Shown: positions 1 through 27,874 of the stretch, piece by piece
How the letters are laid out: each line of letters starts with the position of its first letter
Numbering within the stretch: position 1 is the first letter of the stretch
Assembly: GCA_021647985.1 (NCBI GenBank)
Contig: JAKITQ010000012.1
Coordinates: forward strand, 1-64,000
Length of the DNA: 64,000 bases
Reading direction: 5' to 3'
Source: Flavobacteriaceae bacterium
Lineage (GTDB): Bacteria > Bacteroidota > Bacteroidia > Flavobacteriales > Flavobacteriaceae
Notes under the pieces: generated by a model
What the model was told of the DNA's origin: nothing
The model's database searches: none
What the model saw: only the letters and a program-made list of their open reading frames with translations
Program-made: the position numbers and the translations under genes

Positions 1-84
1 AAAAATATTTATGTATTTTTGTCGAATTCTTTTGGATTTGGAGGAACCAACTCCGTAATTATTGTGAAAAAAATAAAAAGATAG
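1..84 (+). CDS. Beta-ketoacyl-ACP synthase, C-terminal fragment (truncated by window start)
   Basis: Frame 1 reads KNIYVFLSNSFGFGGTNSVIIVKKIKR*, the conserved ketosynthase C-terminal SNSFGFGGTN motif, ending in TAG at 82-84. Confidence 0.85.
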   Translation, partial: KNIYVFLSNSFGFGGTNSVIIVKKIKR

Positions 85-93
85 TATATAGAA

Positions 94-336
94 ATGGAGA
101 AAAATTTTATAATTAATAAAATTAATGATTTTTTAATAGATGAATTTGAGGTAGAAGCTGAAGAGTTAAAGCCAGAAGCAAATTTAAAAGAAACATTAGA
201 GTTAGACAGTTTAGATTTTGTTGATCTAGTGGTGTCGGTAGAGTCTAATTTTGATGTAAAATTGGTAGCTGATGACTTTGTTAGTATCATTACATTGAAA
301 GATTTCTATGATTTTATTGATCATAAATTGAATTAA
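94..336 (+). CDS. Acyl carrier protein
   Basis: 80 aa acidic protein with LDSLDFVDLV phosphopantetheine-attachment motif. Confidence 0.88.
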   Translation: MEKNFIINKINDFLIDEFEVEAEELKPEANLKETLELDSLDFVDLVVSVESNFDVKLVADDFVSIITLKDFYDFIDHKLN

Positions 337-346
337 ATTACTTTTA

Positions 347-1225
347 ATGTCGCAATGGGATGGCAAATCGAGAGGAGCGGTTCTTGGCTATAAAATATTT
401 ATTTTTTTAATAAAAAATGTAGGTCTAAGAGCAGCATACTTTTTGCTTTACTTTGTAGCATTTTACTTTCTGTTATTTTCTTGGCAAGGAACCAAAGCAA
501 GTTTTTATTATTTTCATAATCGTTTGGGCTTTTCTACGCTTAGAAGTATAGGAAAGATTTATAAAAGCTATTTTGTATTTGGGCAAACGATTATCGATAA
601 AATTGTTATTTCTTCTGGAATTAAAAATAAGTTCACCTATGAGCATGACGGAGGAGAGGCTATCGTTCAATTGTTAAAAGAAAAAAAAGGAGGAATTTTA
701 ATTAGTGCCCATGTAGGTAATTTTGAAATTGCAGATTACTTTTTTAATGAGTTAGAAAATAGCTCGCAAATCAACCTTGTTGCTACAGACAGAGAGCATC
801 GTGCCATTAAAGAGTATCTGGAAAGTATGTCTTTGAAAAACAATTTGAAATTTATTGTTGTTAATGAAGATTTATCTCATATTTTTGAAATCAATAATGC
901 ATTGAGTAATAATGAACTGGTATGTTTTACCGGTGACAGATATTTTGAAGGGAATAAGGTTTTAACTGAGACCTTACTGGGTAAAAAAGCGAAGTTTCCG
1001 GCAGGAACTTTTCTGTTAGGATCAAGAATAAATGTACCGGTTTTGTTTGTATATGTAATGAAAGAAACAAGCAAACATTACCATTTATATACGCGTAAAG
1101 CCAATTTTAAAAATAGAGATGCACAAGACCTTTTAAAAAGTTATACGAAAAGTGTAGAGTGGATTTTGAAAAAATATCCATATCAATGGTTTAATTATTT
1201 TGATTTTTGGAATGATATAAAATAG
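347..1225 (+). CDS. LpxL/HtrB-type lysophospholipid acyltransferase family protein
   Basis: GGILISAHVGNFEIADYF (HxxxxE-like) and FTGDRYF / FPAGTFLLGSRINVPVLFV pattern of the LpxL/HtrB family; in operon with ACP. Confidence 0.8.
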   Translation: MSQWDGKSRGAVLGYKIFIFLIKNVGLRAAYFLLYFVAFYFLLFSWQGTKASFYYFHNRLGFSTLRSIGKIYKSYFVFGQTIIDKIVISSGIKNKFTYEHDGGEAIVQLLKEKKGGILISAHVGNFEIADYFFNELENSSQINLVATDREHRAIKEYLESMSLKNNLKFIVVNEDLSHIFEINNALSNNELVCFTGDRYFEGNKVLTETLLGKKAKFPAGTFLLGSRINVPVLFVYVMKETSKHYHLYTRKANFKNRDAQDLLKSYTKSVEWILKKYPYQWFNYFDFWNDIK

Positions 1226-1232
1226 AATAGAT

Positions 1233-2156
1233 TTGAAAAATGTTTTAGTAGTTTACTACACCCAGTCGGGACAGTTATTAGATATTGCAAAAAATATTAC
1301 CAACGAGTTAGCATCATCAGAAGATGTAAATCTTAGCTTTTACGAAATTAAGCTCAAAGAAAATTTTCCATTTCCATGGGATAAATCTACTTTTTATGAT
1401 GCGTTTCCAGAATCCTTTATACAGATTCCTGCAGACTTAACCGATTTAAATAACCCTTTGCTAAAGCAAAAATATGATTTAGTTGTTGTGGCATACCAGA
1501 TTTGGTATTTATCTCCTGCAGTTCCAATAAACTCTTTCCTAAAAAATAAAGTTGCTAAACAATTGTTAGCAAATACGCCTGTGCTAACAGTTATTGGCTG
1601 TAGAAATATGTGGGTAATGGCACAAGAAAAAATGAAGAAATTGCTTGTAGATAATGGAGCAAATCTTGTTGGGCACATTTCATTATTTGACAGACATCCA
1701 AATCATATAAGTGTTATTACCATATTTGATTGGGCTTTTTCGGGTGTTAAAAAAAGAATTTTAGGTATTTTTCCTAAACCGGGAGTATCTGATAAAGATA
1801 TTGAAAACTCTAAAAGATTTAGTAATGATATATTACAGACGGTACAGTCGAATAAATATACAGACCTGCAAGATAAATTATTAAATAAAGGTGCTGTAGT
1901 AATCAAGCCTTTTTTAATTGTAACAGATAAAAGAGCACAGATTATTTTTGATAAATGGTCTTCTTTTGTGTATAAAAAGGGTAAGGCAAAAGATCCGAAA
2001 AGGCAATTTAGGTTACAGATGTTTAGTTATTATTTAATGTTTGCAATTTGGATTATTGCTCCTTTGGTTTTTATTGTATATTTGTTCACTTTTCCCTTTA
2101 CGATGGCTAAAAGGAAGAAGGAAAAATATTATTACTCACATACCAAATTAAAATAG
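1233..2156 (+). CDS. darA: DarA-like dialkylresorcinol condensing enzyme (flavodoxin-like N-terminus)
   Basis: VLVVYYTQSGQLLDIAKNI flavodoxin-like start; immediately followed by a DarB-like KASIII; TTG start likely. Confidence 0.75.
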   Translation: MKNVLVVYYTQSGQLLDIAKNITNELASSEDVNLSFYEIKLKENFPFPWDKSTFYDAFPESFIQIPADLTDLNNPLLKQKYDLVVVAYQIWYLSPAVPINSFLKNKVAKQLLANTPVLTVIGCRNMWVMAQEKMKKLLVDNGANLVGHISLFDRHPNHISVITIFDWAFSGVKKRILGIFPKPGVSDKDIENSKRFSNDILQTVQSNKYTDLQDKLLNKGAVVIKPFLIVTDKRAQIIFDKWSSFVYKKGKAKDPKRQFRLQMFSYYLMFAIWIIAPLVFIVYLFTFPFTMAKRKKEKYYYSHTKLK

Positions 2157-2157
2157 A

Positions 2158-3300
2158 TTGTATAAAATGTCGGACGTTTATATCAATAGAATTTCCAAGA
2201 CTTTACCAAACAATCCAGTTTCGAATGATGAAATGGAAGATATCTTAGGATATATAGATGGGAAAAAATCAAAGGCAAGAGCACTTATTCTTCGTAGCAA
2301 TAAGATCAAAACGAGATACTACTGTTTGGATGAAAACAGAAATATAACACATACAAATGCACAATTAACAAAAGAAGCAATTGATGAATTATTTGATGCA
2401 GAATTCACAGAAGAAGATGTAGAGGTTTTATCATGTGGAACAACTACTCCAGACCAATTATTACCTTCGCATGCGGTAATGGTACATGGTCTGTTTGATA
2501 AGAGAAGTTATGAATTAAATTCAGCTTCCGGGATTTGTACATCAGGTATGAATGCATTAAAATTTGGTTTTTTATCTGTAAAATCAGGAAGCACCAATAA
2601 TGCAGTGTGTGCTGCTTCTGAAAGGTTTTCAACATGGATGCTTGCTGAAAAGTTTGATAATGAAGTTGAAAATTTAAAATTCTTACAAGAAAAACCAATT
2701 ATAGCCTTTAAAAAGGAATTTTTAAGATGGATGTTGTCTGACGGTTCTTCGGCAATGCTTTTGGAAAATAAACCAAAAGGTAAAATGTCGTTAAAAATTG
2801 AATGGATGGAAGCATTTTCTTATGCACACGAATTAGATACTTGTATGTATGCCGGTGGTGACAAACAGGAAGACGGTTCTATCAAACCATGGAATGAATA
2901 TACGCCTGAAGAATGGCTTACTAAATCTGTTTTCTCATTAAAACAAGATGTTAAATTACTAGACGCTAATATTTTACAAAAAGGTGTTCTTAGCATGGCT
3001 GAAGCCTTAAAAAAGCATAAAGTTGACCCTTCTACTATTAATCATTTTTTACCACATATTTCTTCCTTTTATTTTAAAGATGGTTTAAAAGAACAAATGG
3101 ATGAAAAAGGTATTAATGTACCTGCTGATAGTTGGTTTTTAAACTTAGACAGCGTTGGAAATATAGGATCAGCTTCTATTTATATTATGTTAGAAGAGTT
3201 ATTTCATTCAAGTAAATTAAAAAAAGGAGATTCTATATTTCTATGTGTTCCAGAGAGTGGTAGGTTTTCTTATGCTTACGCACTTTTAACAGTTTGTTAA
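2158..3300 (+). CDS. darB: DarB-like 3-oxoacyl-ACP synthase III family protein
   Basis: SASGICTSGMNALKFGF active-site Cys region, SVGNIGSASIYIMLEEL C-terminal KASIII motif; adjacent to darA-like gene. Actual start may be the internal ATG at 2167. Confidence 0.78.
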   Translation: MYKMSDVYINRISKTLPNNPVSNDEMEDILGYIDGKKSKARALILRSNKIKTRYYCLDENRNITHTNAQLTKEAIDELFDAEFTEEDVEVLSCGTTTPDQLLPSHAVMVHGLFDKRSYELNSASGICTSGMNALKFGFLSVKSGSTNNAVCAASERFSTWMLAEKFDNEVENLKFLQEKPIIAFKKEFLRWMLSDGSSAMLLENKPKGKMSLKIEWMEAFSYAHELDTCMYAGGDKQEDGSIKPWNEYTPEEWLTKSVFSLKQDVKLLDANILQKGVLSMAEALKKHKVDPSTINHFLPHISSFYFKDGLKEQMDEKGINVPADSWFLNLDSVGNIGSASIYIMLEELFHSSKLKKGDSIFLCVPESGRFSYAYALLTVC

Positions 3301-3312: not shown

Positions 3313-3732
3313 ATGATTGTTGATAGTGATAAAGTAAAAAAATTAATTCCTCAAAAAGAGCCGTTTGTAATGGTTGATGAATTATTAACTTATACAGAAG
3401 AGCATTTAAAATCTCGATTTAGAGTTGCATCCAATAATATTTTTGTTGAAGATAATCACTTTGTAGAATCAGGAATTATTGAACACATGGCACAGTCGGT
3501 AGCTTTACATACTGGTTACCACTTTTTTTTGAAGAATAAACCTGCGCCTATTGGTTACATTGGATCCATTAAAAGTGTGATAATTAACAGATTGCCAAAA
3601 ACAGGAGAATCTTTAGAAACTAAAGTTGATATTATTCAAGAATTTATGGGAGTAACTTTGGTAAATATTGAGGTTTTCTGTAAAAATGAAATCATCGCTA
3701 AAAGTCAAATGAAAACGGTATTGGCAAAATAA
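3313..3732 (+). CDS. 3-hydroxyacyl-ACP dehydratase-like hotdog protein
   Basis: LIPQKEPFVMVDELL...FVESGIIEHMAQSVALHTGY hotdog dehydratase pattern. Confidence 0.75.
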   Translation: MIVDSDKVKKLIPQKEPFVMVDELLTYTEEHLKSRFRVASNNIFVEDNHFVESGIIEHMAQSVALHTGYHFFLKNKPAPIGYIGSIKSVIINRLPKTGESLETKVDIIQEFMGVTLVNIEVFCKNEIIAKSQMKTVLAK

Positions 3733-3736: not shown

Positions 3737-4210
3737 ATGGGTACGCTAAACAAAAATATTGATATAAGAAAATACTTACCACATAGAAAATCTATGTTAA
3801 TGGTTGATGCGTTAAAAACATTGACAATAGATTTTGTTAAAACAGAATTTTTAATAAAACAAAACAACATTTTTTTAAAAAATGATACTTTTATTGAATC
3901 GGGTTTGGTAGAGAATATAGCCCAAACATGCTCAATAATTGCAGGTAGTTCTTATTTTAATGATGGAGATGAAAGAAAAGAAAACAAATCAGAAGTTATA
4001 GGTTATATTACCACAATAAAAACTGTTAATATTTATAACTTACCCAAAATAAATGACCTTCTTATTTCAAATGGAAAAATGATTTCAAGATTTGATTTTG
4101 AAAATTATTTAACTTGTACTATGCAAGGTGAAATATGGTGTAATGATAAATTGATGTTAGACTGTTTATTGAACTTGTTTATTAAAGACATAAGTCATGA
4201 AAGAAAATGA
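3737..4210 (+). CDS. Second hotdog-fold dehydratase-like protein
   Basis: YLPHRKSMLMVDALKTL...FIESGLVENIAQTCSIIAG; parallels the preceding ORF (tandem paralogue). Confidence 0.7.
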   Translation: MGTLNKNIDIRKYLPHRKSMLMVDALKTLTIDFVKTEFLIKQNNIFLKNDTFIESGLVENIAQTCSIIAGSSYFNDGDERKENKSEVIGYITTIKTVNIYNLPKINDLLISNGKMISRFDFENYLTCTMQGEIWCNDKLMLDCLLNLFIKDISHERK

Positions 4211-4598
4211 AGTCCCTCAAGATAAGAGTCACCTTGCTTCTGCAAAAATGAATGAACTCTGTTATGTGGTAGATAAAAATGGTAATTATTCAACAAAACA
4301 AAGTTCAGGATGGGCTCCAAAAACTCTAGCACTTGATAAATCACTAGAGTTAATAGATGAACGTGTTAAAGAAATAAAGCAAAAGGTAATAAATAATGAA
4401 CTTAGTCCGATAGCATACTATATGGAATTGAATCGAATGGATCTTTCTGTTTTAGCAGCGTATTTTGGTAAATGGAAATGGATTGTAAAAAGACATTTTA
4501 ATCCTTCTAAATTTGATAAACTCACTTCAAAATCGTTAAAAAAATATGCAGATATTTTTAATATTAGTATGGATGAATTAAAAGAGATTTCGAAATAA
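4197..4598 (+). CDS. Hypothetical protein within the biosynthetic cluster
   Basis: 133 aa ORF overlapping the previous gene by 14 nt, followed closely by the next; no recognised catalytic motif. Confidence 0.7.
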   Translation: MKENEVPQDKSHLASAKMNELCYVVDKNGNYSTKQSSGWAPKTLALDKSLELIDERVKEIKQKVINNELSPIAYYMELNRMDLSVLAAYFGKWKWIVKRHFNPSKFDKLTSKSLKKYADIFNISMDELKEISK

Positions 4599-4599
4599 A

Positions 4600-5598
4600 A
4601 TGAAAATTGATTTTAAACATAAACAAACCGCTCATTGCGAAAATGGTGTTATTTCAAATTTGTTAACACATAATGGATTAAAAATTAGTGAACCCTTAGC
4701 ATTTGGATTAGGTTCAGGAATATTTTTTGTGTACTTACCATTTATAAAAGTAAATTTTGCACCAGCACTTAGTTTTAGACCGCAACCAGGGCTAATTTTT
4801 AAACGTATGACGAAACGTTTGGGGATTAAAATTAAAAGGCAAAAGTTTAAGAATCCAGAATCTGCAAAAAACACTTTGGATAAAATGCTTGCCAATAATA
4901 TCCCTGTAGGATTACAAGTTGGAGTTTTTAATCTCACCTATTTTCCAGACGAATACCGTTTCCATTTTAATGCACATAACTTAGTTGTTTATGGTAAGGA
5001 AGGTGATACTTATTTAATAAGTGATCCTGTAATGGAAAATACAACAATACTTACTTCAAAAGAATTAGAAACTGTAAGGTTTGCAAAAGGGGTTTATGCA
5101 CCCAAAGGGCAAATTTATTATCCAGTTGAAATACCAAAAGAAATTGATTTTGAAAGTGCGATTAAAAAAGCAATTAAGGCAACTTGCAGAGATATGTTAG
5201 CTCCTGTACCAATAGTTGGAGTAAAAGGTATGCGGATGGTTGCAAAGTCAATAAAAAAATGGCCTAAAAAAATTGGCATAAAAAAGACCAATCATTATTT
5301 AGGACAAATTGTAAGAATGCAGGAAGAGATAGGTACTGGTGGGGGAGGTTTTAGATTTATGTACGGTGCTTTTTTACAAGAAGCTTCAGAAATTTTAAAA
5401 AATAATGAATTAAAAAAACTTTCAAAAGAAATAACAGATATTGGTGATTTGTGGCGTGATTTTGCTTTAGATGCATCGCGTTTGTATAAAAATAGAAGTA
5501 ATGAATTTGATGGATATAATAAAGTCGCAGATAAATTATTTCATATAGCTAATATGGAAGAAGTATTTTACAAAAAATTAAAAAAAGCTATTGCCTAG
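4600..5598 (+). CDS. BtrH N-terminal domain-containing protein
   Basis: HCENGVISNLLTHNGLKISEPLAFGLGSGIFF... and FNAHNLVVYGKEGDTYLISDPV, resembling the BtrH_N/DUF4872 arrangement. Confidence 0.75.
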   Translation: MKIDFKHKQTAHCENGVISNLLTHNGLKISEPLAFGLGSGIFFVYLPFIKVNFAPALSFRPQPGLIFKRMTKRLGIKIKRQKFKNPESAKNTLDKMLANNIPVGLQVGVFNLTYFPDEYRFHFNAHNLVVYGKEGDTYLISDPVMENTTILTSKELETVRFAKGVYAPKGQIYYPVEIPKEIDFESAIKKAIKATCRDMLAPVPIVGVKGMRMVAKSIKKWPKKIGIKKTNHYLGQIVRMQEEIGTGGGGFRFMYGAFLQEASEILKNNELKKLSKEITDIGDLWRDFALDASRLYKNRSNEFDGYNKVADKLFHIANMEEVFYKKLKKAIA

Positions 5599-6354
5599 AT
5601 GAGTAAAGCATTAATCCATATCAATCAATTGGCGAAAAAGTATAAGGACTCTGATTATTTTGCAGTGAATCCGTTGAGGTTGTCTATTCAAAAAAATGAA
5701 ATATTTGGGTTAATAGGGCCAAACGGAGCTGGTAAAACAACGCTTATTTCTATGCTTTGCGGTTTGGTAAAACCTACTGCTGGCACTATAGAAATTAAAG
5801 AGTTAAATTATAGAAAAAACAAAAATAAAATTCAAAATATAATTGGAGTTGTACCGCAAGAATACGCTTTGTATCCTACCTTGACTGCATTTGAAAACTT
5901 GATGTATTTTGGAGCGATGTACGGTTTGAAAGGAGAGAATTTCAAAAATAAAATTAAAGAATCATTAAAAAGATTAGGATTAACACGCTTTACAAATAAA
6001 AAAATAAAAACTTTTTCAGGAGGTATGAAGCGACGTGTTAATTTAATTGCAGGAACTTTACATAACCCAGAAATATTATTTTTAGACGAACCAACTGTTG
6101 GTGTTGATGTACAATCAAAAAATGTAATTATTCAACATTTAAAACAATTAAATAAAGAAGGATCGACAATTGTTTACACTTCGCATCACATGTTGGAAGC
6201 AGAAGATTTTTGTACAGATGTAGCAATTATTGATGATGGAAATATTATAGCGAGAGGGCATCCAACAGAATTGATTAAATCCGTTAAAATGGCATCTAAT
6301 TTAGAAGAGGTATATCTAAATTTGACAGGGGGAGAATTAAGAGATTATGCATAA
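5599..6354 (+). CDS. ABC transporter ATP-binding protein
   Basis: Walker A GPNGAGKTTL, signature FSGGMKRRV, Walker B ILFLDEPTVGVD. Confidence 0.95.
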   Translation: MSKALIHINQLAKKYKDSDYFAVNPLRLSIQKNEIFGLIGPNGAGKTTLISMLCGLVKPTAGTIEIKELNYRKNKNKIQNIIGVVPQEYALYPTLTAFENLMYFGAMYGLKGENFKNKIKESLKRLGLTRFTNKKIKTFSGGMKRRVNLIAGTLHNPEILFLDEPTVGVDVQSKNVIIQHLKQLNKEGSTIVYTSHHMLEAEDFCTDVAIIDDGNIIARGHPTELIKSVKMASNLEEVYLNLTGGELRDYA

Positions 6355-7621
6355 GTTATGGCAATCAACATATAAAGAATTTTTACTCTTAAAAAGAGAT
6401 ATAGGGGGCTTAGTCATACTTTTTGTGATGCCATTAATTCTCGTTATAACTGTAACACTAATTCAAGAAAACACATCGCAACATATATTTAATTCAAAGA
6501 TTAATATTTTGCTAATTGATAATGATGTAGATGCGTTATCAAAAACTATTATTTCAAATTTAGCCAATAGTAATTCATTTGAAGTTGTTACAGAAATTGA
6601 CGGGAAACATATTACTGAAGAGCAGGTAAATGATTTGGTTTTGAGTAGTAAATATAAGTTTGCAATAATTATCCCTAAAGACTTAACGAAGAACTTAAGT
6701 GCCAAAGTATCGCAAAATGTTTCAAAAATATTAGAAGAATTTGAAATTTCAGAAAATGAGATAATTGAAAATAAAGTAATAGAACCACAGCAAATTAAAT
6801 TGTATTTTGACCCTACAATTCAATTATCGTTTAGAAATGGAATAAAAAATGCCATAGATAATATGATTTCTAAAATTGAAACACAATCTATTTACAAGGC
6901 ATTTAAAGACGAGTTAGAAATAGATAAAGATGTTTTTAAGAATGAAAAATTTATTACTTTTTTAGAAATAAACCCACAAAAAAACAACAAAGAGATCAAA
7001 CCTAATTCAGTACAACACAATGTTCCTGCATGGGCTTTATTTGCCATATTTTTTATCATCGTACCGCTTTCAATAAATATTGTAAATGAAAAAAATCAAG
7101 GAACATTTGTGCGATTAAAAACTAATCCTATTTCTTATGCTACAATTTTAGGAGGTAAAGTTATTATTTATTTAATAGTTTGTTTGATCCAATTTACCTT
7201 AATGTTATTGGTTGGCCTTTATTTATTCCCTAATTTAGGGCTTCCAAATTTTGATGTAAATGGTAGTTATTTTTTATTATTTTTAGTGGCTATATTTTCT
7301 GGTTTAGCTGCAATTGGTATCGGAATATTAATCGGCACAATTGCAAGTACACATGAGCAGTCTGCACCATTTGGAGCTACATTGGTAGTGATTTTAGCCG
7401 CAATTGGCGGGGTGTGGATTCCTGTATTTGCTATGCCTAATGTAATGCAGTTAATTGCGAAAATTTCGCCAATGAATTGGGGATTGAATTGTTTTTATGA
7501 TGTTATAATTCGCGATAACAGTTTTATAGAAATTTTACCTAAAATTTTATTGATGGGAATATTTTTTATTGTGATAACTGCTATTGCAATAAATTACGAT
7601 AAAGCTAAAAACACGATGTAG
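6347..7621 (+). CDS. ABC transporter permease (ABC-2 type)
   Basis: N-terminal TM, large extracytoplasmic loop, C-terminal multi-TM block; overlaps the ATPase gene by 8 nt. Confidence 0.9.
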   Translation: MHKLWQSTYKEFLLLKRDIGGLVILFVMPLILVITVTLIQENTSQHIFNSKINILLIDNDVDALSKTIISNLANSNSFEVVTEIDGKHITEEQVNDLVLSSKYKFAIIIPKDLTKNLSAKVSQNVSKILEEFEISENEIIENKVIEPQQIKLYFDPTIQLSFRNGIKNAIDNMISKIETQSIYKAFKDELEIDKDVFKNEKFITFLEINPQKNNKEIKPNSVQHNVPAWALFAIFFIIVPLSINIVNEKNQGTFVRLKTNPISYATILGGKVIIYLIVCLIQFTLMLLVGLYLFPNLGLPNFDVNGSYFLLFLVAIFSGLAAIGIGILIGTIASTHEQSAPFGATLVVILAAIGGVWIPVFAMPNVMQLIAKISPMNWGLNCFYDVIIRDNSFIEILPKILLMGIFFIVITAIAINYDKAKNTM

Positions 7622-7623: not shown

Positions 7624-8037
7624 ATGGAGTTAAAGAAGCTTACCAATATTAGAATTAGATTCAATGAAACAGATCCGTTAGGAATTGTTTGGCACGGAAA
7701 CTACATTGCTTATTTTGAAGATGGGAGAGAAGATTTTTGTAACAAACACGGTATTTCATATATAGATGCAAAAGCAAATGGTTTTGCAACACCAATAGTC
7801 GAATCTATTTGCAAACATAAATTGCCATTAAAATATGGTGATATTGCAACAATTGAAACGACTTATGTTGACACACCTGCAAATAAAATGATTTTCACAT
7901 ATATTATTTATAACCCTAAAGGGGAAGTGGTTTGTACAGGTAAAACAACACAGGTTTTTATTACTGATAAAGGAGATTTGGTGTTAAATATTCCTGAATT
8001 TTTTGCAGCATGGAAAAAAAAGGTTGGATTATTATAA
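7624..8037 (+). CDS. Acyl-CoA/ACP thioesterase, 4HBT hotdog family
   Basis: IRIRFNETDPLGIVWHGNYIAYFEDGREDF: 4HBT thioesterase signature with D-P-x-G-I-V-x-H-x-x-Y. Confidence 0.85.
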   Translation: MELKKLTNIRIRFNETDPLGIVWHGNYIAYFEDGREDFCNKHGISYIDAKANGFATPIVESICKHKLPLKYGDIATIETTYVDTPANKMIFTYIIYNPKGEVVCTGKTTQVFITDKGDLVLNIPEFFAAWKKKVGLL

Positions 8038-8045: not shown

Positions 8046-9197
8046 ATGAGAGAAGTTTATATTACAAATCATCATGTTATTAGCGCTTTGGGTTTTGATA
8101 GTGCTTCTAATTATAAAAGCTTATTAGAAGGTAAATCAGGTATTAAAAAACATATAAGAAAAAATGGTGATTCATATTATAGCTCTCATGTTGATAAAAA
8201 TAAAGTTGATGAGGCTTTTTTAAAAATTGAAGATAAAGAAAAGTATACTGTACTTGAAAAAATGATGATTTTAACCATAAATCATGTATTAAAAGAATCT
8301 AATTTAAAAATTACAGATAAAACAGGTTTGATTATAGCGTCTACCAAAGGGAATGTAGAAGCTTTATCTCCAGATTCGGAGTTTTATAAGTTGAAAAATA
8401 AAGCATATTTACCTCAATTGGGTAAACAAATACAAGTTTTTTTTAGTTTTAAAAATGAGCCTGTAATTTTATCAAATGCTTGTGTGTCGGGTGCTTTAGC
8501 TTTGGTGGTTGCAAAGCGATTGATTCAATCTAATTTGTATGATGATATTGTTGTAGTTGGTGGAGATTTGGTTTCTGAATTTATTTTATCAGGTTTTACA
8601 TCATTTCAAGCAATAAGTGACAAACCATGTAAGCCGTTTTCAAAAAACAGAACTGGAATTACATTAGGCGAAGCAGTAGCAAGTGCATTGGTTACTTCAG
8701 ATGAAAAAAGTACTTATAAAAATAGGGTTCAAATTATTGGAGGAGCTTCTTGTAATGATGCAAACCATATTTCTGGTCCATCACGAACAGGTGAAGGTTT
8801 ATTTTTAAGTGTAAAATCAGCTTTGGAAGAAGCTAATATTGAAGCTGCCGAATTGGATTATATTTCTGCGCATGGTACAGCGACTAATTATAATGATGAA
8901 ATGGAATCGATTGCTTTTAGTAGATTAAATATGTTAGATATCCCCCTAAATAGTTTAAAAGGGTATTATGGGCATACCTTAGGAGCCTCGGGACTTTTGG
9001 AGATCATAATGGGTATTGAAGCTTTAAATAGCAACACATTAATTGCTTCAAAAGGTTTTGATGAATTGGGTGTTACACATCCTGTAAAGGTTATAAAAAA
9101 AACGACTCAAAAAGAGTTGCATATGTTTTTAAAAACAGCATCAGGATTTGGTGGTTGTAATACTGCTGTGATTTTAAAAAAAGTACAAAACTATTGA
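8046..9197 (+). CDS. Beta-ketoacyl-ACP synthase (KAS I/II type)
   Basis: SNACVSGALAL active site, DYISAHGTATNYND, KGYYGHTLGASGLLE, SGFGGCNTAVIL. Confidence 0.88.
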   Translation: MREVYITNHHVISALGFDSASNYKSLLEGKSGIKKHIRKNGDSYYSSHVDKNKVDEAFLKIEDKEKYTVLEKMMILTINHVLKESNLKITDKTGLIIASTKGNVEALSPDSEFYKLKNKAYLPQLGKQIQVFFSFKNEPVILSNACVSGALALVVAKRLIQSNLYDDIVVVGGDLVSEFILSGFTSFQAISDKPCKPFSKNRTGITLGEAVASALVTSDEKSTYKNRVQIIGGASCNDANHISGPSRTGEGLFLSVKSALEEANIEAAELDYISAHGTATNYNDEMESIAFSRLNMLDIPLNSLKGYYGHTLGASGLLEIIMGIEALNSNTLIASKGFDELGVTHPVKVIKKTTQKELHMFLKTASGFGGCNTAVILKKVQNY

Positions 9198-10330: not shown

Positions 10331-10945
10331 TTGTTGTATAAAAACTTTTACATACAAAGCTATTGCTATATAAGAAATAACCAACTTTGGTTAGATGGAG
10401 AAGTTGTATTTGATGGCAAGCAAAGTGATAATCTTAATTTTTTTTTAAAAAGTGCTTATAGAAACTTGGAAATAAAATATTCTAAATTTTTTAAAATGGA
10501 TAATTTAAGTAAAATTTCATTTTTAGCTGCTGAAACTATTTTTAAAAATATTATTTTAGAAAATAAAAATACTGCCATAGTGTTTTCAAATAAAGCTGCA
10601 AGTTTAGAGACAGATAGAAAGTTTCAAGACTCCATAAGTAATGTAGATAATTTTTATCCTAGTCCAGCTGTATTTGTATATACATTACCAAATATAGGAA
10701 TTGGTGAGATTAGTATTCGACATAATTTAAAAAGTGAAAGTGCATTTTTTATTTTTGAGAATTATAATGCAAACTTTCATCAAAATTATGAAAATGAATT
10801 ATTGCAAAACACCAATTTAGAATCAGTTTTAGGGGGTTGGGTTAATGTTGATGGTGATAATTACGATGCATTTGTATATTTGGTTTCAAAAAAGGGAAAT
10901 GTGAAACACACAAAAGAAAATCTATTAAAATTATATAAAGGTTAA
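10331..10945 (+). CDS. Small beta-ketoacyl synthase-like protein (incomplete KS-like domain)
   Basis: 204 aa TTG-start ORF; FFLKSAYRNLEIKYSKFFKMDNLSKISFLAAETIF and PSPAVFVYTLPNIGIGEISIRHNLKSESAFF resemble KS-like N-terminal folds; located before ACP/KS pair. Confidence 0.55.
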   Translation: MLYKNFYIQSYCYIRNNQLWLDGEVVFDGKQSDNLNFFLKSAYRNLEIKYSKFFKMDNLSKISFLAAETIFKNIILENKNTAIVFSNKAASLETDRKFQDSISNVDNFYPSPAVFVYTLPNIGIGEISIRHNLKSESAFFIFENYNANFHQNYENELLQNTNLESVLGGWVNVDGDNYDAFVYLVSKKGNVKHTKENLLKLYKG

Positions 10946-17605: not shown

Positions 17606-20600
17606 TTTATTTTTTAATATATATAAAACCTTAATAAATAAAAAAATAATTGTAGTTGGTTTCTTACTATTATTATTGAGTACACTTTTATTTTTCGCCA
17701 CAAAACTTGACTTTGAAGAAGATATTTCAAAACTAATTCCGCAATCAGAAGAAACTAAAACACTAAACAAAGTTTTAAATAACACTAATTTTTCCGATAA
17801 AATAATTGTTAATATATCTACAAGAAAAAATGGTACTACAGAAAACCTAATTGCTTATGCTGAAGAAATTATTGATAGTTTGCAGCTCCATTGCAAGGAT
17901 TATATTTTAAATATCCAAGGAGAAATATCAAATGATGATATGGTTAATACCATGGATTTTGTTTATAATAATTTACCTCTTTTTATGGAGGAAAAAGATT
18001 ATCAATATTTAAGAGATAGGTTTTCTGAAGATAGTTTAACCGCTGTCATAACAAATAATTTTAAAATTTTAATTTCTCCAAGTGGAATTTTCGCAAAAAA
18101 CACGATTCGCAAAGATCCATTTGGTTTGTCTTTTAGGGCGCTAAAAAAATTAGAAGATTTAAAACTAACCGATAACTTTGAAATTTACAATGGATTTTTA
18201 ATTACAAAAGATAAAAAGAATCTTTTATTATTTATCAAACCAAAATTACCAACCAATGAAACAGATGCCAATACCGATTTTGTAAATAAATTATACGCCA
18301 TATCTGATGGTTTAAATCAAAAGTATGTTGATATAGTAGTATCAGAATATTATGGTTCAACAGTAATTGCTGTTGCTAATGCCAGTCAAATCAAAACAGA
18401 TATAAAGTATACAATAACCTTGGCTCTTTTGGTTTTAATTTTTATACTGATTTTCTTCTATCGCAAACTATTCATCCCAATTTTATTGTTTATTCCAACA
18501 ATTTTTGGTGCATTAACGGCAATGGTTACCTTGTTGATCATAAGAGAAAATATATCTGCTATTTCACTCGGAATAGGCTCGGTGTTATTAGGTATTACTT
18601 TGGATTATTCTTTACATATTTTAACCCATTACAGAAATAATAATGATGTTAATCAACTCTATAAAGATATTACCAAACCAATATTGATGAGTAGTATAAC
18701 TACCGCCGTAGCATTTTTATGTTTATTACTTTTAAGATCACAAGCCTTACAAGATTTAGGTATTTTTGCCGCTATAAGCGTTTTAAGTACTTCTATTTAC
18801 GCATTGTTGATAATTCCGTTGTTTTATAAACCAAAAATTTTAAAAAATAAATTTTCAAAAAATTTTATTGAAGTAATTGCCAATTATAGTTTTGATAAAA
18901 ATAAATTCATTTATACAGGTATTTTTATTGTTTTAATTTTGAGTTTCTTCACTTTTAAAAATGTTCGTTTCAACAAAGATTTGAATAGCATGAATTACCA
19001 AAGCGAAGTGATATTAAATGCTGAAAAAAACTTGGACTCGATGTTAAGTCTTTCATCTAAATCAGTTTACCTTGTTGGATATGGTAATAATTTAAATGAG
19101 GTTTTACAAGCAAATACCAATATAAATCAGCTTTTGCAAAGATTAGAATTAACCAATGATATTTTGCAGTTTAGCTCTAATGGCTCAGTAGTTTTGTCTG
19201 AGAATGATCAACAAAAGAAATTAGAAATATGGAATTCTTTTTGGACAGATTCCTTAAAACACAAGTTAAAAATAGATTTAATTGAAAAAGGAGAGCAGGT
19301 TGGTTTCAATGCGTCTACTTACAAGCCATTTTATAATTTGATATATAAAGACTTTAATACCATTGATCTAGAAGTATATAATAGTGTAAAGTCATTATTA
19401 GCTGAAGAGTATATTGTAAAGAATAGTGATTTTATAACAGCAGTGTCTTTGGTGAAAATAAATGGTAGTCAAAAAGAACATTTAAGCCAATTGGTCGATG
19501 AAATTCCAAATGCATTGTTAATAGATAGAAAACAAATTAGTGAAACCTTTTTAGGTGGATTGAAAGATGATTTTTCATCATTAATCAATTATTCGTTAAT
19601 TGCAATTGTTATTATTTTATTGCTCTTTTTTAGAAATATAGAACTTACCTTATTAACTGTTTTTCCTATTGTACTTACGTGGATGTTAACCCTTGGAGTA
19701 ATGGGGTTTTTCGGTATTGAATTTACAATTTTTAATGTTATTATTACAACATTTATTTTTGGCTTAGGGGTTGATTATAGTATTTTTATGACCAATGCCT
19801 TGGTAAAAGATTATACATATGGAACCAAAGAAATCGCTACCTATAAAATCTCCATTCTTTTATCCGTTATTACAACAATATTAGGTGTTGGTGTATTGAT
19901 ATTTGCAAAACACCCTGCATTAAAATCTATTTCTATTTTATCTTTAATAGGTATTTTAATTACAGTTTTGGTAACCTTTACGATACAACCATTATTGTTT
20001 AGAATCTTCATAGTGAATAGAGCAAAAAATGGTTTTTCTCCAATAAAAATAAGATCTTTTCTTTATGCAATTTTTACACTTTTAATATATGGATTGGGAG
20101 GTATGTTTTTGTCAATTTTGAGTATTACGATCTTGCCACTAATACCAATTGCTAAAAAAAATAAATTTAAATGGCTACACAAAGCTATGGCAAAATTCGT
20201 TCAAATAGTATTGTATACGAATCCATTTGTTAAAAAAAGAGTTATCAATTCAGGTAAAGAAGACTTTAAGAAACCAGCAATTATTATTGCAAATCATTCC
20301 TCTTCATTAGATACATTAACAATGGGTTTATTAACTCCTAACTTAATTTATTTAGTAAATGATTGGGTATATAAGTCGCCAATATTCGGAATTTTAGCAA
20401 AAGTTGCTGGGTTTTACCCTGTTTCTAAAGGTGCTGAAGAAATTACAGAACCTTTAAAAGAGAAAATACGTCAGGGATATTCATTAATGGTTTTTCCAGA
20501 AGCGAAAAGGTCTTTCACCAATAAGGTTGGTAGGTTTCATAAAGGAGCTTTCTTTTTACAAGAGCAATTAAAATTGGATATTGTACCTGTTTATTTACAT

Positions 20601-21275
20601 GGAAATGCAGAGGTTATGCCTAAAAATGATTTTATTATTCACGATGGCTCTTTAACGGTAAAAGTTGGAGATAGAATTGCTTTTGATGATAAAAGTTTTG
20701 GATTAACATCTAGAGAAAGGAATAAAAAAATAAGTAAATATTTTAAAAGTAATTTTTTGGAATTTCGTGATGAAATTGAAAATAAAAATTATTATAGAGG
20801 TATACTTTTATCCAACTACTTGTATAAAGACAAGAAGATTCAAAATTTGGTAAAAGAAGATTTTGAAAAATATAAAAGTCTTTATTATAATTTGAATATA
20901 ACATTACCAAGAAGCATAAAGATATTGCATATAGGAAATGATTTTGGGCAAATTGATATCTTATTAGTATCAAAATCAATAGAAAGAAAAATCGACTCAT
21001 TTATTAGCGATGAAAATCATTTAAACGTAGCAAAAAACTGTTATACTGTAAAATGTAGAAAGGTTACTTATATTGAAAACCTTTCAGAGATTAAAGCTAT
21101 TGATTATGAATTATTATTAATTTCTGATGCAATTGGATTAAAATATTTAGATCAAAAAGAATTACTTGCGTTTAAACAAGTTTTTGTGCTAAATAAAACC
21201 TTATCTGAAGTAAAAACCATTAAAAATGAAGATAAAAATATTTCACGATTAAATGAATTAATTGGATACGATTAA
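17598..21275 (+). CDS. MMPL/RND-family exporter fused to a PlsC-like acyltransferase and a C-terminal methyltransferase-like region
   Basis: Two 5-6 TM MMPL repeats (GIGSVLLGITLDYSLHILTHYR; FIFGLGVDYSIFMTNALV), then IIIANHSSSLDTLTMGLL ... VFPEAKRSFT acyltransferase motifs; C-terminus has IKILHIGNDFGQIDILLVSKS. Confidence 0.85.
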   Translation: MGNLFFNIYKTLINKKIIVVGFLLLLLSTLLFFATKLDFEEDISKLIPQSEETKTLNKVLNNTNFSDKIIVNISTRKNGTTENLIAYAEEIIDSLQLHCKDYILNIQGEISNDDMVNTMDFVYNNLPLFMEEKDYQYLRDRFSEDSLTAVITNNFKILISPSGIFAKNTIRKDPFGLSFRALKKLEDLKLTDNFEIYNGFLITKDKKNLLLFIKPKLPTNETDANTDFVNKLYAISDGLNQKYVDIVVSEYYGSTVIAVANASQIKTDIKYTITLALLVLIFILIFFYRKLFIPILLFIPTIFGALTAMVTLLIIRENISAISLGIGSVLLGITLDYSLHILTHYRNNNDVNQLYKDITKPILMSSITTAVAFLCLLLLRSQALQDLGIFAAISVLSTSIYALLIIPLFYKPKILKNKFSKNFIEVIANYSFDKNKFIYTGIFIVLILSFFTFKNVRFNKDLNSMNYQSEVILNAEKNLDSMLSLSSKSVYLVGYGNNLNEVLQANTNINQLLQRLELTNDILQFSSNGSVVLSENDQQKKLEIWNSFWTDSLKHKLKIDLIEKGEQVGFNASTYKPFYNLIYKDFNTIDLEVYNSVKSLLAEEYIVKNSDFITAVSLVKINGSQKEHLSQLVDEIPNALLIDRKQISETFLGGLKDDFSSLINYSLIAIVIILLLFFRNIELTLLTVFPIVLTWMLTLGVMGFFGIEFTIFNVIITTFIFGLGVDYSIFMTNALVKDYTYGTKEIATYKISILLSVITTILGVGVLIFAKHPALKSISILSLIGILITVLVTFTIQPLLFRIFIVNRAKNGFSPIKIRSFLYAIFTLLIYGLGGMFLSILSITILPLIPIAKKNKFKWLHKAMAKFVQIVLYTNPFVKKRVINSGKEDFKKPAIIIANHSSSLDTLTMGLLTPNLIYLVNDWVYKSPIFGILAKVAGFYPVSKGAEEITEPLKEKIRQGYSLMVFPEAKRSFTNKVGRFHKGAFFLQEQLKLDIVPVYLHGNAEVMPKNDFIIHDGSLTVKVGDRIAFDDKSFGLTSRERNKKISKYFKSNFLEFRDEIENKNYYRGILLSNYLYKDKKIQNLVKEDFEKYKSLYYNLNITLPRSIKILHIGNDFGQIDILLVSKSIERKIDSFISDENHLNVAKNCYTVKCRKVTYIENLSEIKAIDYELLLISDAIGLKYLDQKELLAFKQVFVLNKTLSEVKTIKNEDKNISRLNELIGYD

Positions 21276-21583: not shown

Positions 21584-22213
21584 ATGAGAAAATTATTATT
21601 AGTAACCATAGTCTTATTAGGATTTGGTATAATTAATGCACAAGAAAAAGTAAAAGAAGGTATTAAAAAAGGTGCAGATGCTGTCGAAACAGAAGCAGTA
21701 AAGCTTTATAATCAAGCTAAAACAGGTGGTTTTAAAGCAGGTGCAAATATTGGGTTGCCAATACAAGGTGCTAGTGATGTTTCATCATTTAATTTTGGAG
21801 CAGATATAGCATATTTATTTGAAATAATGGAAAATCTTGAAGTAGGAGGGTTAGTTGGATATACTGTGTATAATGGTGATGGTAAATATGAGGTTTATGA
21901 TGGTGGAGAGGGTGTAGTTGTTAAAAATTATAAGGATGCTGGTTTTGTGCCAATTTCAACAACCGCAAGGTATTATTTTTCTAATCGTAAATTTTTTGGG
22001 GGATTGGATCTTGGTTATGCTATTAATGTTTCTGGAGATGCAAATGGAGGCCTTTTTGTTAGACCAAAATTTGGTTTTAATTTTGGTAAAATAACCTTGA
22101 TAGGGTCTTTTCAAAGAATTTCTGGAGGTGTTGATTATTATGAAGGAAATGTTAATGTATTTAAAATTAGTGGTTTTACATCTGCAAATTTTGGTATAGA
22201 ATATGGATTTTAA
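21584..22213 (+). CDS. Outer membrane beta-barrel protein
   Basis: Signal peptide (LLLVTIVLLGFGIINAQ), amphipathic strands, C-terminal ANFGIEYGF. Confidence 0.8.
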   Translation: MRKLLLVTIVLLGFGIINAQEKVKEGIKKGADAVETEAVKLYNQAKTGGFKAGANIGLPIQGASDVSSFNFGADIAYLFEIMENLEVGGLVGYTVYNGDGKYEVYDGGEGVVVKNYKDAGFVPISTTARYYFSNRKFFGGLDLGYAINVSGDANGGLFVRPKFGFNFGKITLIGSFQRISGGVDYYEGNVNVFKISGFTSANFGIEYGF

Positions 22214-22300: not shown

Positions 22301-23821
22301 GTGAAAGAAAAATACGATATAGTAATTATTGGGAGCGGTTTAGGCGGCTTAGTATCTGCTAATATTCTTGCTAGAGAAGGCTATAGTGTATGTGTTCTTG
22401 AAAAAAATAATCAGTTTGGAGGTAATTTACAAACCTTTGTTAGAGATAAAAATATTTTTGATACAGGAGTTCACTATATTGGAAGCTTAGATAAAGGTCA
22501 AAATTTACATCAATATTTTAAGTATTTAGGCATTATGGATGACTTAAAACTTAAAAAATTAGATAACGATAAATATGATGTTATTACATTTGAAGGTGAT
22601 GATAAAGAGTACTATCACGCCCAAGGTTTTGAAAAATTTACTAGATCACTTATAAATCAATTCTCCGAAGAGGAAAAAGCAATACACCTTTATTGTGAAA
22701 AACTTAAAGCCGCATGTAAAAGCTTTCCTTTATATAATTTAGACGGGAATTCTAATGGATATGATAAGTCTTATTTAACTTTGAAAATTTCTGATTATCT
22801 AGATTCTATTACCGAAAATAAAATATTAAAATCTGTTTTAGCAGGTTCTAATTTTTTATATGCAGGAGAAAGAAATACACCATTTTATGTCCATGCTTTA
22901 TCTACCAATTCATTCATTCAAAGTGCTTGGCGATGCGTAAATGGAGGTGGTCAAATATCAAAATTACTAGTAAAAAAGCTCAAAGAATTTGGAGGAGAAA
23001 TATATAAATACCAAGAGGTATCTAAATTTGGTTTTGAAGAAGAAAAATTATCATCAATAATAACTAAAAAAGGAAAAATTATTAAAGCCGATATTTTTAT
23101 TTCAAACATTGAACCAAAGCTTACTATAAAAATGTTAAACGGGAAAGGGATGCGTAAATCGTATGTCAATAGAATAAAACAAATCAAAAGTGGTATATCT
23201 GCATTTAGTATGTATATTGTATTTAAACCAAAAACATTCAAATATTTAAATTACAATTATTATCATTTTAAAGATGTAAATAAAATTTGGGATGTTCAAA
23301 AATATTCCAATTCTTCATGGCCAGAAGGGTATATGATTTCTATGGGCGTGAAAAAAAATCAAACCAAATGGACAGATAGCTTAACAGCAATGACTTATAT
23401 GAATTTTGAAGAGGTAAAACAATGGGAAAATACATTTAATACGGTTGCTGAAGAGTTTGAAAGAGGAGAAGCATATAAGAAATTTAAGAAAGATAAGGCT
23501 GAAGTTTTCATTGTAGAATTAGAAAAAAAATTCCCAAATATTAGAGCGTGTATACAATCGGTTTATACTTCTACTCCTTTGTCATATCGTGATTATATTG
23601 GTAGTAATGAAGGAGCAATGTACGGTTACGTTAAAGATGCTAACAATCCAATGCAATCATTCTTATCGCCTAAAACGAAATTAAAAAATCTTTTCTTTAC
23701 AGGGCAAAGTTTAAACATGCATGGTATTTTGGGAGTAACAATTAGTGCTGTTTTAACATGTTCACAAATTATTGGAAAAGAAAAATTACTAAATACTATT
23801 AATTCTGCAATAAGTGAATGA
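22301..23821 (+). CDS. FAD-dependent phytoene desaturase/CrtI-like oxidoreductase
   Basis: YDIVIIGSGLGGLVSANILAREGYSVCVLEKNNQFGGNLQTF dinucleotide-binding motif; C-terminal FFTGQSLNMHGILGVTISAV; GTG start. Confidence 0.88.
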   Translation: MKEKYDIVIIGSGLGGLVSANILAREGYSVCVLEKNNQFGGNLQTFVRDKNIFDTGVHYIGSLDKGQNLHQYFKYLGIMDDLKLKKLDNDKYDVITFEGDDKEYYHAQGFEKFTRSLINQFSEEEKAIHLYCEKLKAACKSFPLYNLDGNSNGYDKSYLTLKISDYLDSITENKILKSVLAGSNFLYAGERNTPFYVHALSTNSFIQSAWRCVNGGGQISKLLVKKLKEFGGEIYKYQEVSKFGFEEEKLSSIITKKGKIIKADIFISNIEPKLTIKMLNGKGMRKSYVNRIKQIKSGISAFSMYIVFKPKTFKYLNYNYYHFKDVNKIWDVQKYSNSSWPEGYMISMGVKKNQTKWTDSLTAMTYMNFEEVKQWENTFNTVAEEFERGEAYKKFKKDKAEVFIVELEKKFPNIRACIQSVYTSTPLSYRDYIGSNEGAMYGYVKDANNPMQSFLSPKTKLKNLFFTGQSLNMHGILGVTISAVLTCSQIIGKEKLLNTINSAISE

Positions 23822-25488
23822 TAATAAAAATAGGTAAATATAATTTTTTGTTAGTTTTATTACTTCTTGTTTCATGTGGTACCAAAAAATCAATTAAAAA
23901 CGAGCCCAATAAAGCTGATTTTTTTATTGAATCCATACCGAAAAATAGAATTACAGATTCATTATTTTTTAAAGGAAATAATAGCCTAAGAAAAAATCAA
24001 TATGGTCAATGGGAATTGACAGCTTCTGGAGACCCAATAAATCTTGGGAATAATATAGGTGATTTAACAACAGAATTAGTACAACAACAAGAAGAAATTT
24101 TTTTTAATAAAATAGAAGAGTTGGTGCCTTCAAAGTTTAGCCAGCGATTTTTAAGAAAATTTTTATCCTGGTATACTCGAAAAATGTATTTGTACATGAA
24201 TGAAGAGTATAAACAAGAAATTTTTGGAATTTCTCAGTATTTATCTGATAAGTATGATTTTATTGCCGATAATTACCAGCGGAGCTTGTATTTACATGCC
24301 GCTCATGATATTGGTCATGCAATGCAAGACCTTGCCTTGGTTGGTTGTTCTTCATTTGCAGTTTGGGGAGACAATACCCCTGATGGAAATTTAGTAATAG
24401 CCAGAAATTTTGATTTTTATCTTGGAGATGATTTTTCTAAAGAAAAAATAATAACATTTATTAACCCTGAAAAAGGATATAAATTTATGGCGGTTTCCTG
24501 GGCAGGATTTGTAGGTGTTATGTCGGGTATGAATAATGAGGGTTTAACAATAACCATAAATGCCGGAAAATCAGATTTACCTTTGGTTGCTAAAAATCCT
24601 ATTTCATTAGTAGCAAGAGAAATTATACAATACGCCTCAAATATTGAAGAAGCAATTGCAATTGCGAAAGAAAAAGAAGTATTTGTTTCTGAATCTATTT
24701 TGGTTGGAAGCGCAAAAGACAATAAGGCAGTAATTATAGAAATATCACCAGAAAAATTTGGAGTATTTGAAGTTGCTAATGCATCAAAATTAATATGTTC
24801 TAATCACTTTCAAAGTGAAGCCTATCAAAACGATGCGAAGAATAAGCAGCATATTGAAGAGAGTCATTCTAAATATAGGTATGATAAAATGCTTGAACTA
24901 TTAAATAAAGCGCATAAAATTACACCTAAAATTGCTGTAGGTATTTTAAGAAATAAAAAAGGTTTAGATAATAAAAATTTGGGTTATGGCAATGAAAAGG
25001 CTCTTAATCAGTTAATTGCGCATCATGGAGTTGTATTTTTACCTCATAAAAAAATGGTTTGGGTATCTGCCAACCCATATCAAATGGGTGAGTTTGTTGC
25101 TTTTCAATTGGATAGCGTTTTTAAAAATTCCAATAAAAAAATAAATACTTTATCCTTGCCAAAGTATCTGATCAAAAAAGACCCGTTTATAGATTCTCAC
25201 GAGTTTAAAAACTACGAAACCTATAAATTAGAGAAAAATATTATCCAAACGGCTATTGATAATAACGAGAAACTAGATGTGAATCGATTAAATAACTTTA
25301 AAGAATTGAACCCTTATTCATGGGAGGTTTATTATCTTGTAGGTTTGTACTATTATCAAAATAAATATTATCAAGCGGCATTAAATGAGTTTGAAGCATC
25401 GTTATTAAAAGAAATTTCAACAATTCCGAATAAAGAAAAAATTGAAAATTATATTAAAAAAATTAAAAGGAAATTAAATGATTCCTAA
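23818..25488 (+). CDS. C45-like (acyl-CoA:6-APA acyltransferase/choloylglycine hydrolase superfamily) Ntn-hydrolase lipoprotein
   Basis: Lipobox VLLLLVSCGTKK; GCSSFAVWGDNTPDGNLVIARNFDFYLGD and SWAGFVGVMSGMNNEGLTITINAG; C-terminal TPR-like region. Confidence 0.75.
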   Translation: MIIKIGKYNFLLVLLLLVSCGTKKSIKNEPNKADFFIESIPKNRITDSLFFKGNNSLRKNQYGQWELTASGDPINLGNNIGDLTTELVQQQEEIFFNKIEELVPSKFSQRFLRKFLSWYTRKMYLYMNEEYKQEIFGISQYLSDKYDFIADNYQRSLYLHAAHDIGHAMQDLALVGCSSFAVWGDNTPDGNLVIARNFDFYLGDDFSKEKIITFINPEKGYKFMAVSWAGFVGVMSGMNNEGLTITINAGKSDLPLVAKNPISLVAREIIQYASNIEEAIAIAKEKEVFVSESILVGSAKDNKAVIIEISPEKFGVFEVANASKLICSNHFQSEAYQNDAKNKQHIEESHSKYRYDKMLELLNKAHKITPKIAVGILRNKKGLDNKNLGYGNEKALNQLIAHHGVVFLPHKKMVWVSANPYQMGEFVAFQLDSVFKNSNKKINTLSLPKYLIKKDPFIDSHEFKNYETYKLEKNIIQTAIDNNEKLDVNRLNNFKELNPYSWEVYYLVGLYYYQNKYYQAALNEFEASLLKEISTIPNKEKIENYIKKIKRKLNDS

Positions 25489-26767
25489 AATAGAAATAAA
25501 GACCATAGCTGAAATAAAGGAGTTTCAGGAAAAAGAACTGCAATTGTTGCTAAAATATTTAGATAGCAGATCTCCTTTTTATAAAGAGTGGTTTAAAAAA
25601 CATCATATTAATCTTAAAGAGATTCTAACACTCGAAGATCTTGTGAAGATTCCGGTAACAACCAAAGAAGAATTACAAAAGTATAACAATGATTTTTTCT
25701 GTGTTGATAGCTCAAAAATAGTTGATTATGTAACTACATCAGGAACAACTGGTAAACCTGTTTTTTTTGGTTTAACCGATAAGGATTTGGATAGATTGGC
25801 ATATAATGAAGCCATATCTTTTGCTTGTTCAAAAGTGTCGAATAATGATGTTATTCAATTAATGACAACCATGGATAGACGTTTTATGGCAGGCTTGGCA
25901 TATTTTTTAGGCGCAAGAAAATTAGGTGCAGGAATTATTAGAGTAGGAGCAGGAATACCAGAATTACAATGGGATTCTATTCAAAAATTTAATCCCACTT
26001 ATCTTATTGCGGTTCCATCATTTTTATTAAAATTGATTGCATATGCAGAGAATAACAATATTGATATAAATAAAAGCTCGGTTAAAGGAGTAATTTGTAT
26101 TGGAGAACCTTTAAAAAACCAAGATTTTGGTTTAAATATTTTATCAGAAAAAATAAAAAATAAATGGAATGTTGACCTTTTTTCTACTTACGCATCTACC
26201 GAAATGGGTACCGCTTTTGCGGAATGTGAATACCAACAAGGAGGCCATCATCACCCCGAATTAATAATTGTAGAAATATTAGATGAAAATGATAAACCTG
26301 TTAAAGATGGAGATGAAGGTGAGCTGGTTGTCACAACTTTAGGTGTTGAAGCAATGCCATTATTGCGGTTTAAAACAGGAGATATAGTTAAAGCTCATAC
26401 CGAACCATGTAAATGTGGAAGAAATACACTTCGTTTAGGACCTGTTGTTGGAAGAAAAAAACAAATGATAAAATATAAAGGGACAACTATTTATCCTCCA
26501 GCCATGTATAATTTATTAAATGATTTTACTGAAATCGAAAATTATATTATTGAAATAAATAATAATGAAATTGGAACAGATAAAATAACAATAAAAATTG
26601 GAGCCAAAAAAACTTCAATGGATTTACTAGAAAAATTAAAAGATCATTTTAGAGCTAAACTAAGAGTTTCGCCACAAATTGAATTTATTTCAATTGAAGA
26701 AATGAACGCTATTAAATTTCCAAAAATGAGTAGAAAACCAATGTTGCTTATTGATAAAAGAAAATAA
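25478..26767 (+). CDS. AMP-binding enzyme, phenylacetate-CoA ligase (PaaK)-like
   Basis: VTTSGTTGKPVFFGLTDKDLDR, YASTEMGTAFAECEYQQGGHHHPE, LLRFKTGDIVKAHTEPCKCGRNTLRLGPVVGRKKQMIKYKGTTIYP. Confidence 0.88.
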   Translation: MIPKIEIKTIAEIKEFQEKELQLLLKYLDSRSPFYKEWFKKHHINLKEILTLEDLVKIPVTTKEELQKYNNDFFCVDSSKIVDYVTTSGTTGKPVFFGLTDKDLDRLAYNEAISFACSKVSNNDVIQLMTTMDRRFMAGLAYFLGARKLGAGIIRVGAGIPELQWDSIQKFNPTYLIAVPSFLLKLIAYAENNNIDINKSSVKGVICIGEPLKNQDFGLNILSEKIKNKWNVDLFSTYASTEMGTAFAECEYQQGGHHHPELIIVEILDENDKPVKDGDEGELVVTTLGVEAMPLLRFKTGDIVKAHTEPCKCGRNTLRLGPVVGRKKQMIKYKGTTIYPPAMYNLLNDFTEIENYIIEINNNEIGTDKITIKIGAKKTSMDLLEKLKDHFRAKLRVSPQIEFISIEEMNAIKFPKMSRKPMLLIDKRK

Positions 26768-27874
26768 ATGGAAGAAATTTTTAAAACAATAGCCCCATAT
26801 TCAAAAGAAAAGGTTTTAGAAACTTTAGTTTGGTTAGAAAGTAGTGATAAGTTTGTTAAGGGGGTGCAATATTTTTATCCAAATTGGAGTAAAGGTTTGA
26901 TTATTGAAAAATTACAATCTTGTAAAACCTGTTCTGATTTTCAAGTTACATTTATTGAGATGATTATTAAGAATTCTATTAATAATTCGATGGATTCTTT
27001 TGAGCTTATTGGTTTAGATAAAATTGACACAACAAATTCACTCTTTATTTCAAATCACAGAGATATTTTTTTAGATTCAGCTTTACTTCAAAACCATTTG
27101 TATGATATGGGAAAACCATTTACCGAAATTTCTTTAGGAGATAATTTAATGGTAAATGACACAATGAAAGCCATAGCAAAATTGAATAATATGTTTACTG
27201 TTTTTAGAAGTGATAAAAGAATGGAAAAATTAAAGAACTCTATTAATTTGTCAAAATATATACGACATTCAATTATTAATAAAAAGGTATCCTCGTGGAT
27301 TGCTCAAGGTAACGGAAGAACCAAAAATGGCAATGATATTACTGAGCCAGGTTTAATAAAAATGTTATTATTAAGTGGTAGTAATGATGTTAGAGCGTCT
27401 TTGTCAGAATTAAATATTGTAGTTTCAACTATATCTTTTGAATACGAGCCATGTGCTTTTGAAAAAGCAAATGAGTTAAGTATTCAAGAAAAAGATGGAG
27501 ATTATAGAAAGGATAAATTTGAAAATATAAACAGTATTTTAAGTGGAATAAATAGTAATAAGGGTAATGTAAAACTTTTATTTGAAAAATTAAATGTCGA
27601 TAATATTGAATTTACAAATAACCGTAAGCAAGATGTTGTAAAAATAGTTAATGAGCTAGATAGCTTAGTTTATAAAAATTATCAACTATGGAAAACGAAT
27701 TATATGGCTTATGATTTGTTGCATAGTGATTTTAAATATCAAGAATACTATAACCGAGAAGATATAGTGAGGTTTAAAAAATATCTTAAAATATCTGAGA
27801 ATGAAGATATTTATTACAAAGTTTTAAAAATGTATGTAAACCCTGTTTATAATAAAAATAAGGCTAATCTCTAA
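26768..27874 (+). CDS. Glycerol-3-phosphate/1-acylglycerol acyltransferase-like protein
   Basis: [22 protein letters not shown] (NHR/HxxxxD-like motif) and [16 protein letters not shown]. Confidence 0.72.

Follow-up and report, generated by a model that had tools for sequence, protein, structure and literature searches.

Flexirubins are yellow-orange membrane pigments. The tyrosine ammonia lyase (TAL) activity of FlxA and the 4-coumarate-CoA ligase (4CL) activity of FlxY have been shown in Chitinophaga pinensis, where the dar genes make the resorcinol half of the molecule, and a darB mutant of F. johnsoniae was reported to be flexirubin-negative (PMC3992019). The locus described here shares the enzyme set (flxA-flxY plus darA/darB) and the proposed pathway with C. 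pinensis, but its dar genes lie inside one cluster whereas those of C. pinensis lie apart from the flx genes (PMC3992019). Arcuflavin, from Azoarcus sp. BH72, likewise joins an aryl polyene to a dialkylresorcinol; according to the published account (PMC3949708), its starter is hydroxybenzoate made from chorismate by a XanB2-type enzyme and does not arise via a tyrosine ammonia lyase.

Identity and extent of the cluster

The window, meaning the whole stretch of 64,000 nucleotides that was analysed, comprises bases 1-64000 of contig C36 in an incomplete 3.0 Mb genome of 80 contigs. Its compact cluster, at 94-27874, almost certainly represents the major part of a single, ordinary flexirubin locus that is split across two contigs, an assignment based on curated NCBIfam models and gene-for-gene synteny. 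The locus is thus one more flexirubin cluster in the Flavobacteriales and new biochemistry is not needed to account for it; what is unusual is the presence of two very different versions of the resorcinol genes in one assembly.

Gene types were assigned by Pfam and NCBIfam profile scans (Table 1). The NCBIfam flexirubin cut-offs were exceeded in the window by DarB, DarG, DarH, LolA2, LolB2 and FlxY, and the type II ketosynthase (KS), ketoreductase (KR), dehydratase (DH) and acyl carrier protein (ACP) set expected for the polyene was recognized from profile scans and active-site motifs. Nearly all genes between 94 and 27874 are on the + strand, with neighbours that touch or overlap in the list of open reading frames. 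The cluster ends at folD, which lies directly to its right on the opposite strand, and it is truncated on the left because position 1 of the window is the first base of C36. A sequence-only reading of this DNA had proposed a flexirubin-type cluster of about 28 kb on the + strand, truncated at the left edge, and both proposals hold, the first 81 bases being the end of a ketosynthase gene. The DarA/DarB-like enzymes, ACPs, KS and KS-like proteins, thioesterase, CrtI-like oxidoreductase, methyltransferase, CoA ligase and exporters that it listed were all found where it had placed them. Its three hotdog dehydratase genes were also located, at 3313, 3737 and 15500, the one at 3737 being hotdog by resemblance only: Pfam and NCBIfam scans gave no family match for this protein, and the FabZ histidine is absent from its sequence. 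Profile assignment of the Dar enzymes succeeded for DarB, which exceeds the NF053539 cut-off, but not for the DarA-like protein, which exceeds no family cut-off and is placed by homology and synteny.

Table 1. Predicted genes and other features of the cluster, with window coordinates
Feature	Position	Strand	Evidence and remarks
FlxC-like ketosynthase KS1, 3' end	1..81	+	cut by contig end; reads NSFGFGGTNSVIIVKKIKR-stop; full gene at C20 3200-4423
Acyl carrier protein, DSL phosphopantetheine site	94..336	+	PF00550 36.5 bits; motif
FlxE-like LpxL-type acyltransferase	347..1225	+	PF03279 31.8 bits; position conserved in named loci; letter E presumed from gene order
DarA-like enzyme, putative second allele	1233..2156	+	sub-threshold flavodoxin match only; homologues in 79/80 DarB loci
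DarB ketosynthase, putative second allele, apparent mosaic at 3155	2158..3300	+	NF053539 635 bits, cut-off 550
Exact 127-base match to C20 end; assembly junction and putative haplotype breakpoint	3155..3281	+	relatives' identity flips here
FabZ-like hotdog dehydratase	3313..3732	+	NF000582 36 bits, below cut-off; 80/80 loci
Second hotdog-like protein	3737..4210	+	motif resembles 3313-3732; 80/80 loci
DarG	4197..4598	+	NF053545 192 bits, cut-off 170
DarH, BtrH-related acyltransferase	4600..5598	+	NF053550 517 bits, cut-off 300; PF14399, PF16169
ABC exporter (ATPase 5599-6354, permease 6347-7621)	5599..7621	+	PF00005, PF12698
4HBT thioesterase	7624..8037	+	PF13279
Ketosynthase with C146, H276, H310	8046..9197	+	PF00109, PF02801; triad
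FlxJ-like O-methyltransferase family protein	9246..10328	+	NF053543 448 bits over whole model, below cut-off 560
Conserved 204-aa protein	10331..10945	+	72/80 loci
Second acyl carrier protein	10951..11205	+	NF006617 80.5 bits, cut-off 70
Ketosynthase with C160, H293, H328	11207..12406	+	PF00109, PF02801; triad
Degenerate ketosynthase	12373..13467	+	PF13723; active-site Cys absent
Polysaccharide deacetylase-like protein	13461..14237	+	PF01522
LolA2 pigment carrier protein (predicted)	14230..14865	+	NF053544 207 bits, cut-off 125
LolB2	14843..15463	+	NF053540 233 bits, cut-off 60
FabA/FabZ-like dehydratase	15500..15874	+	PF07977
Conserved 164-aa protein	15917..16411	+	found in G022, G024, F. pectinovorum, Sphingobacterium
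Family 2 glycosyltransferase fused to DUF2062	16427..17605	+	PF00535, PF09835
MMPL exporter fused to PlsC-type acyltransferase	17598..21275	+	PF03176, PF01553
Small predicted outer-membrane protein, outside conserved core	21584..22213	+	among relatives examined, G010 only
CrtI/CrtD-like FAD oxidoreductase	22301..23821	+	PF01593; 46-84% identity in full clusters
C45 acyltransferase/hydrolase (penicillin acyltransferase-like)	23818..25488	+	NF040521 228 bits, cut-off 85
FlxY, 4-coumarate-CoA ligase (PaaK-like)	25478..26767	+	NF053551 735 bits, cut-off 520
PlsC-like acyltransferase after FlxY	26768..27874	+	PF01553 18.9 bits, below cut-off

Public genomes were scanned with the DarB profile and the gene neighbourhoods of 80 loci were compared. 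Most of these loci have the same genes in the same order around DarB, and the row is complete through to FlxY in F. pectinovorum DSM 6368, Sphingobacterium allocomposti and two relatives (G022 and G024). The co-conservation with flexirubin clusters whose absence the sequence-only reading would have counted against its assignment is present, in F. pectinovorum as in most of the 80 loci. F. pectinovorum (NZ_FRBX01000002.1), which belongs to the same genus as F. johnsoniae, whose cluster was studied, matches the present locus in gene content, order and strand between the FAD oxidoreductase and TAL at one end and FlxY at the other, with protein identities of roughly 34-75%. It lacks three genes of the window cluster, the FlxJ-like methyltransferase gene, a 209-aa gene and a 368-aa gene. 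The FlxJ family methyltransferase was counted in 24 of the 80 loci at the search depth used. The PlsC-like acyltransferase that follows FlxY was seen only in genus and family relatives (G010, G016, G021 and G024) and is absent from F. pectinovorum. Convincing FlxY and DarA matches are absent from G004, G009, G011 and G013, which are listed as 95-100% complete, so its distribution across the genus is patchy.

Ammonia lyase, starter unit and predicted pathway

No ammonia lyase was found in the window by Pfam and NCBIfam scans, in agreement with the sequence-only reading, which had left two explanations: a lyase upstream of position 1 or a different starter unit. Only one PF00221 gene exists in the whole genome; it lies on contig C20, and its product exceeds the FlxA (tyrosine ammonia lyase) model NF053541 (893 bits, cut-off 700); a PDB search at E 1e-100 returned no solved structure for this TAL. 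A nearby reductase exceeds the FlxB model (417 bits, cut-off 340). The gene order on C20 is FAD oxidoreductase (on the opposite strand), FlxA, WG-repeat protein, FlxB, ketosynthase, ACP, acyltransferase, DarA, DarB and contig end, and the final 127 bases of the contig are identical to window positions 3155-3281. From this overlap and from synteny, C20 would continue into C36. The lyase can thus be placed upstream of position 1, since FlxA is on C20, the 127-base overlap is exact and the order C20-then-window is conserved in the named loci. The search for a TAL gene and the remaining KR and KS genes that had been recommended for the upstream region accordingly ends on C20, with FlxA, the FlxB reductase and the ketosynthase KS1.

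That the cluster works without an ammonia lyase, from another starter, as in aryl polyenes made from 4-hydroxybenzoate, is suggested by the lyase-free window itself, but C20 carries FlxA, FlxB and KS1 in conserved order and the window encodes FlxY, of the 4-coumarate-CoA ligase family; this explanation is exceedingly improbable and was dropped once FlxA turned up on C20. A second complete flexirubin cluster in the genome was also ruled out, by a genome-wide search that found FlxY, like the aromatic lyase, in a single copy.

The pathway can be modelled as follows. FlxA would deaminate tyrosine to 4-coumarate, which FlxY would convert to its CoA ester. On the carrier proteins, its extension to an aryl polyene would then fall to the type II ketosynthases together with the hotdog dehydratases and the reductase FlxB. 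The dialkylresorcinol would be formed from fatty-acid intermediates by DarB and DarA, and an acyltransferase would join the two halves as an ester. The candidate for this step here is DarH, which is related to the acyltransferase BtrH; the proposal in PMC3992019 assigned ester formation to FlxW. The ABC, MMPL and Lol-like proteins may transport the pigment to the outer membrane. The activities given to FlxA, FlxY, DarA and DarB have been demonstrated in relatives, and the other steps are modelled on the scheme of PMC3992019. The residues Cys127, His300 and Asn335 are kept in an alignment of the window DarB, whose nearest solved structure is the ketosynthase StlD. A motif check found the Cys-His-His triad in two window ketosynthases (those beginning at 8046 and 11207) and in KS1 on C20; the ketosynthase at 12373, which lacks the active-site cysteine, is probably a partner subunit resembling a chain-length factor.

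Two versions of darA-darB

The region shared by C20 and the window spans 3.28 kb (window 1-3281), with 78% DNA identity. The first 150 bases of the overlap are 99% identical and the last 127 are fully so, with 67-87% identity in the middle, and protein identities are 90% for the ACP, 88% for the acyltransferase, 66% for DarA and 75% for DarB. The ACP-acyltransferase-DarA-DarB segment is therefore present as two divergent versions that converge, at the darB end, on an identical stretch of exactly 127 bases, and the simple view that C20 and C36 are one sequence cut in two was ruled out by this divergence between the ends.

Comparison with relatives shows a switch at the same place. Window 1-3154 is nearest to G021, G016 and G010, and just left of 3155 its identity to G002 is about 70%; right of 3155, identity to G002 is 88-97% over the first 250 bases. 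In the 250 bases that lead up to the junction, C20 has 89-91% identity to G002. In the DarB tree the C20 copy groups with G002 (100/99) and the window copy with G021, G016 and G010 (100/100), and the AU test rejects one clade for both copies (p about 1e-62 for DarB and 8e-4 for DarA).

The most likely reading is that two haplotypes with exchanged darA-darB alleles were co-assembled, in which case the cluster would look cut because the assembly breaks where the two divergent haplotypes meet. Stated fully, two strains of one population would carry different alleles, one of them gained by homologous recombination whose breakpoint would lie close to where darB ends, and this account is reasonably probable. 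It fits the direct adjacency of 127 exact bases to sequence of 69% identity, the rejection of a single clade, and the pattern of matches, with the window resembling G021/G016/G010 left of 3155 and G002/G005 right of it while C20 resembles G002 on the left. It is conceivable, however, that the assembler attached a tip belonging to a second species, and this tip is not traceable past 3281. If so, window 1-3154 would derive from a different species in the same sample, as a chimeric end of the contig, and no recombinant cell need exist. The 127-base shared stretch does seem to resemble an assembler k-mer length, but k-mers across 3154/3155 require G002-type sequence directly after the other type, and G021, G016 and G010 themselves differ at the junction (79-83%), so that such a chimera is unlikely. 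Less plausible still, the two copies might be paralogues in one genome. There is a precedent in two Paenimyroides loci (L071 and L072), where a second DarA-DarB pair lies within the flexirubin cluster, between two ABC transporter genes; against it, darA-darB is single-copy in every genus member that gave a full-length hit, and the two copies here share their neighbours instead of occupying a new location.

If the haplotype reading is correct and the swapped segment is real, allele exchange could be a source of side-chain diversity in flexirubins. It may be, though this is tentative, that the genus exchanges darA-darB by homologous recombination within a conserved cluster, and that one population holds two alleles with possibly different resorcinol side chains. 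No paper on recombination in flexirubin clusters was evident among the titles and abstracts screened. As a practical caution, the left 3.15 kb of the window should not be taken as the partner of the remaining cluster.

Other relatives give further glimpses of the history of these genes. At three loci (L104, L147 and L148), the DarB of some genus members and of Urechidicola MAG6 groups with Aquimarina, apart from the window's group. The KS1 of G003 and Urechidicola MAG6, unlike their DarB, groups with the window's KS1 in a tree from which the rows for G002 and G005 were left out as other ketosynthases on a very long branch, and this discordance suggests that the history of the cluster is mosaic.
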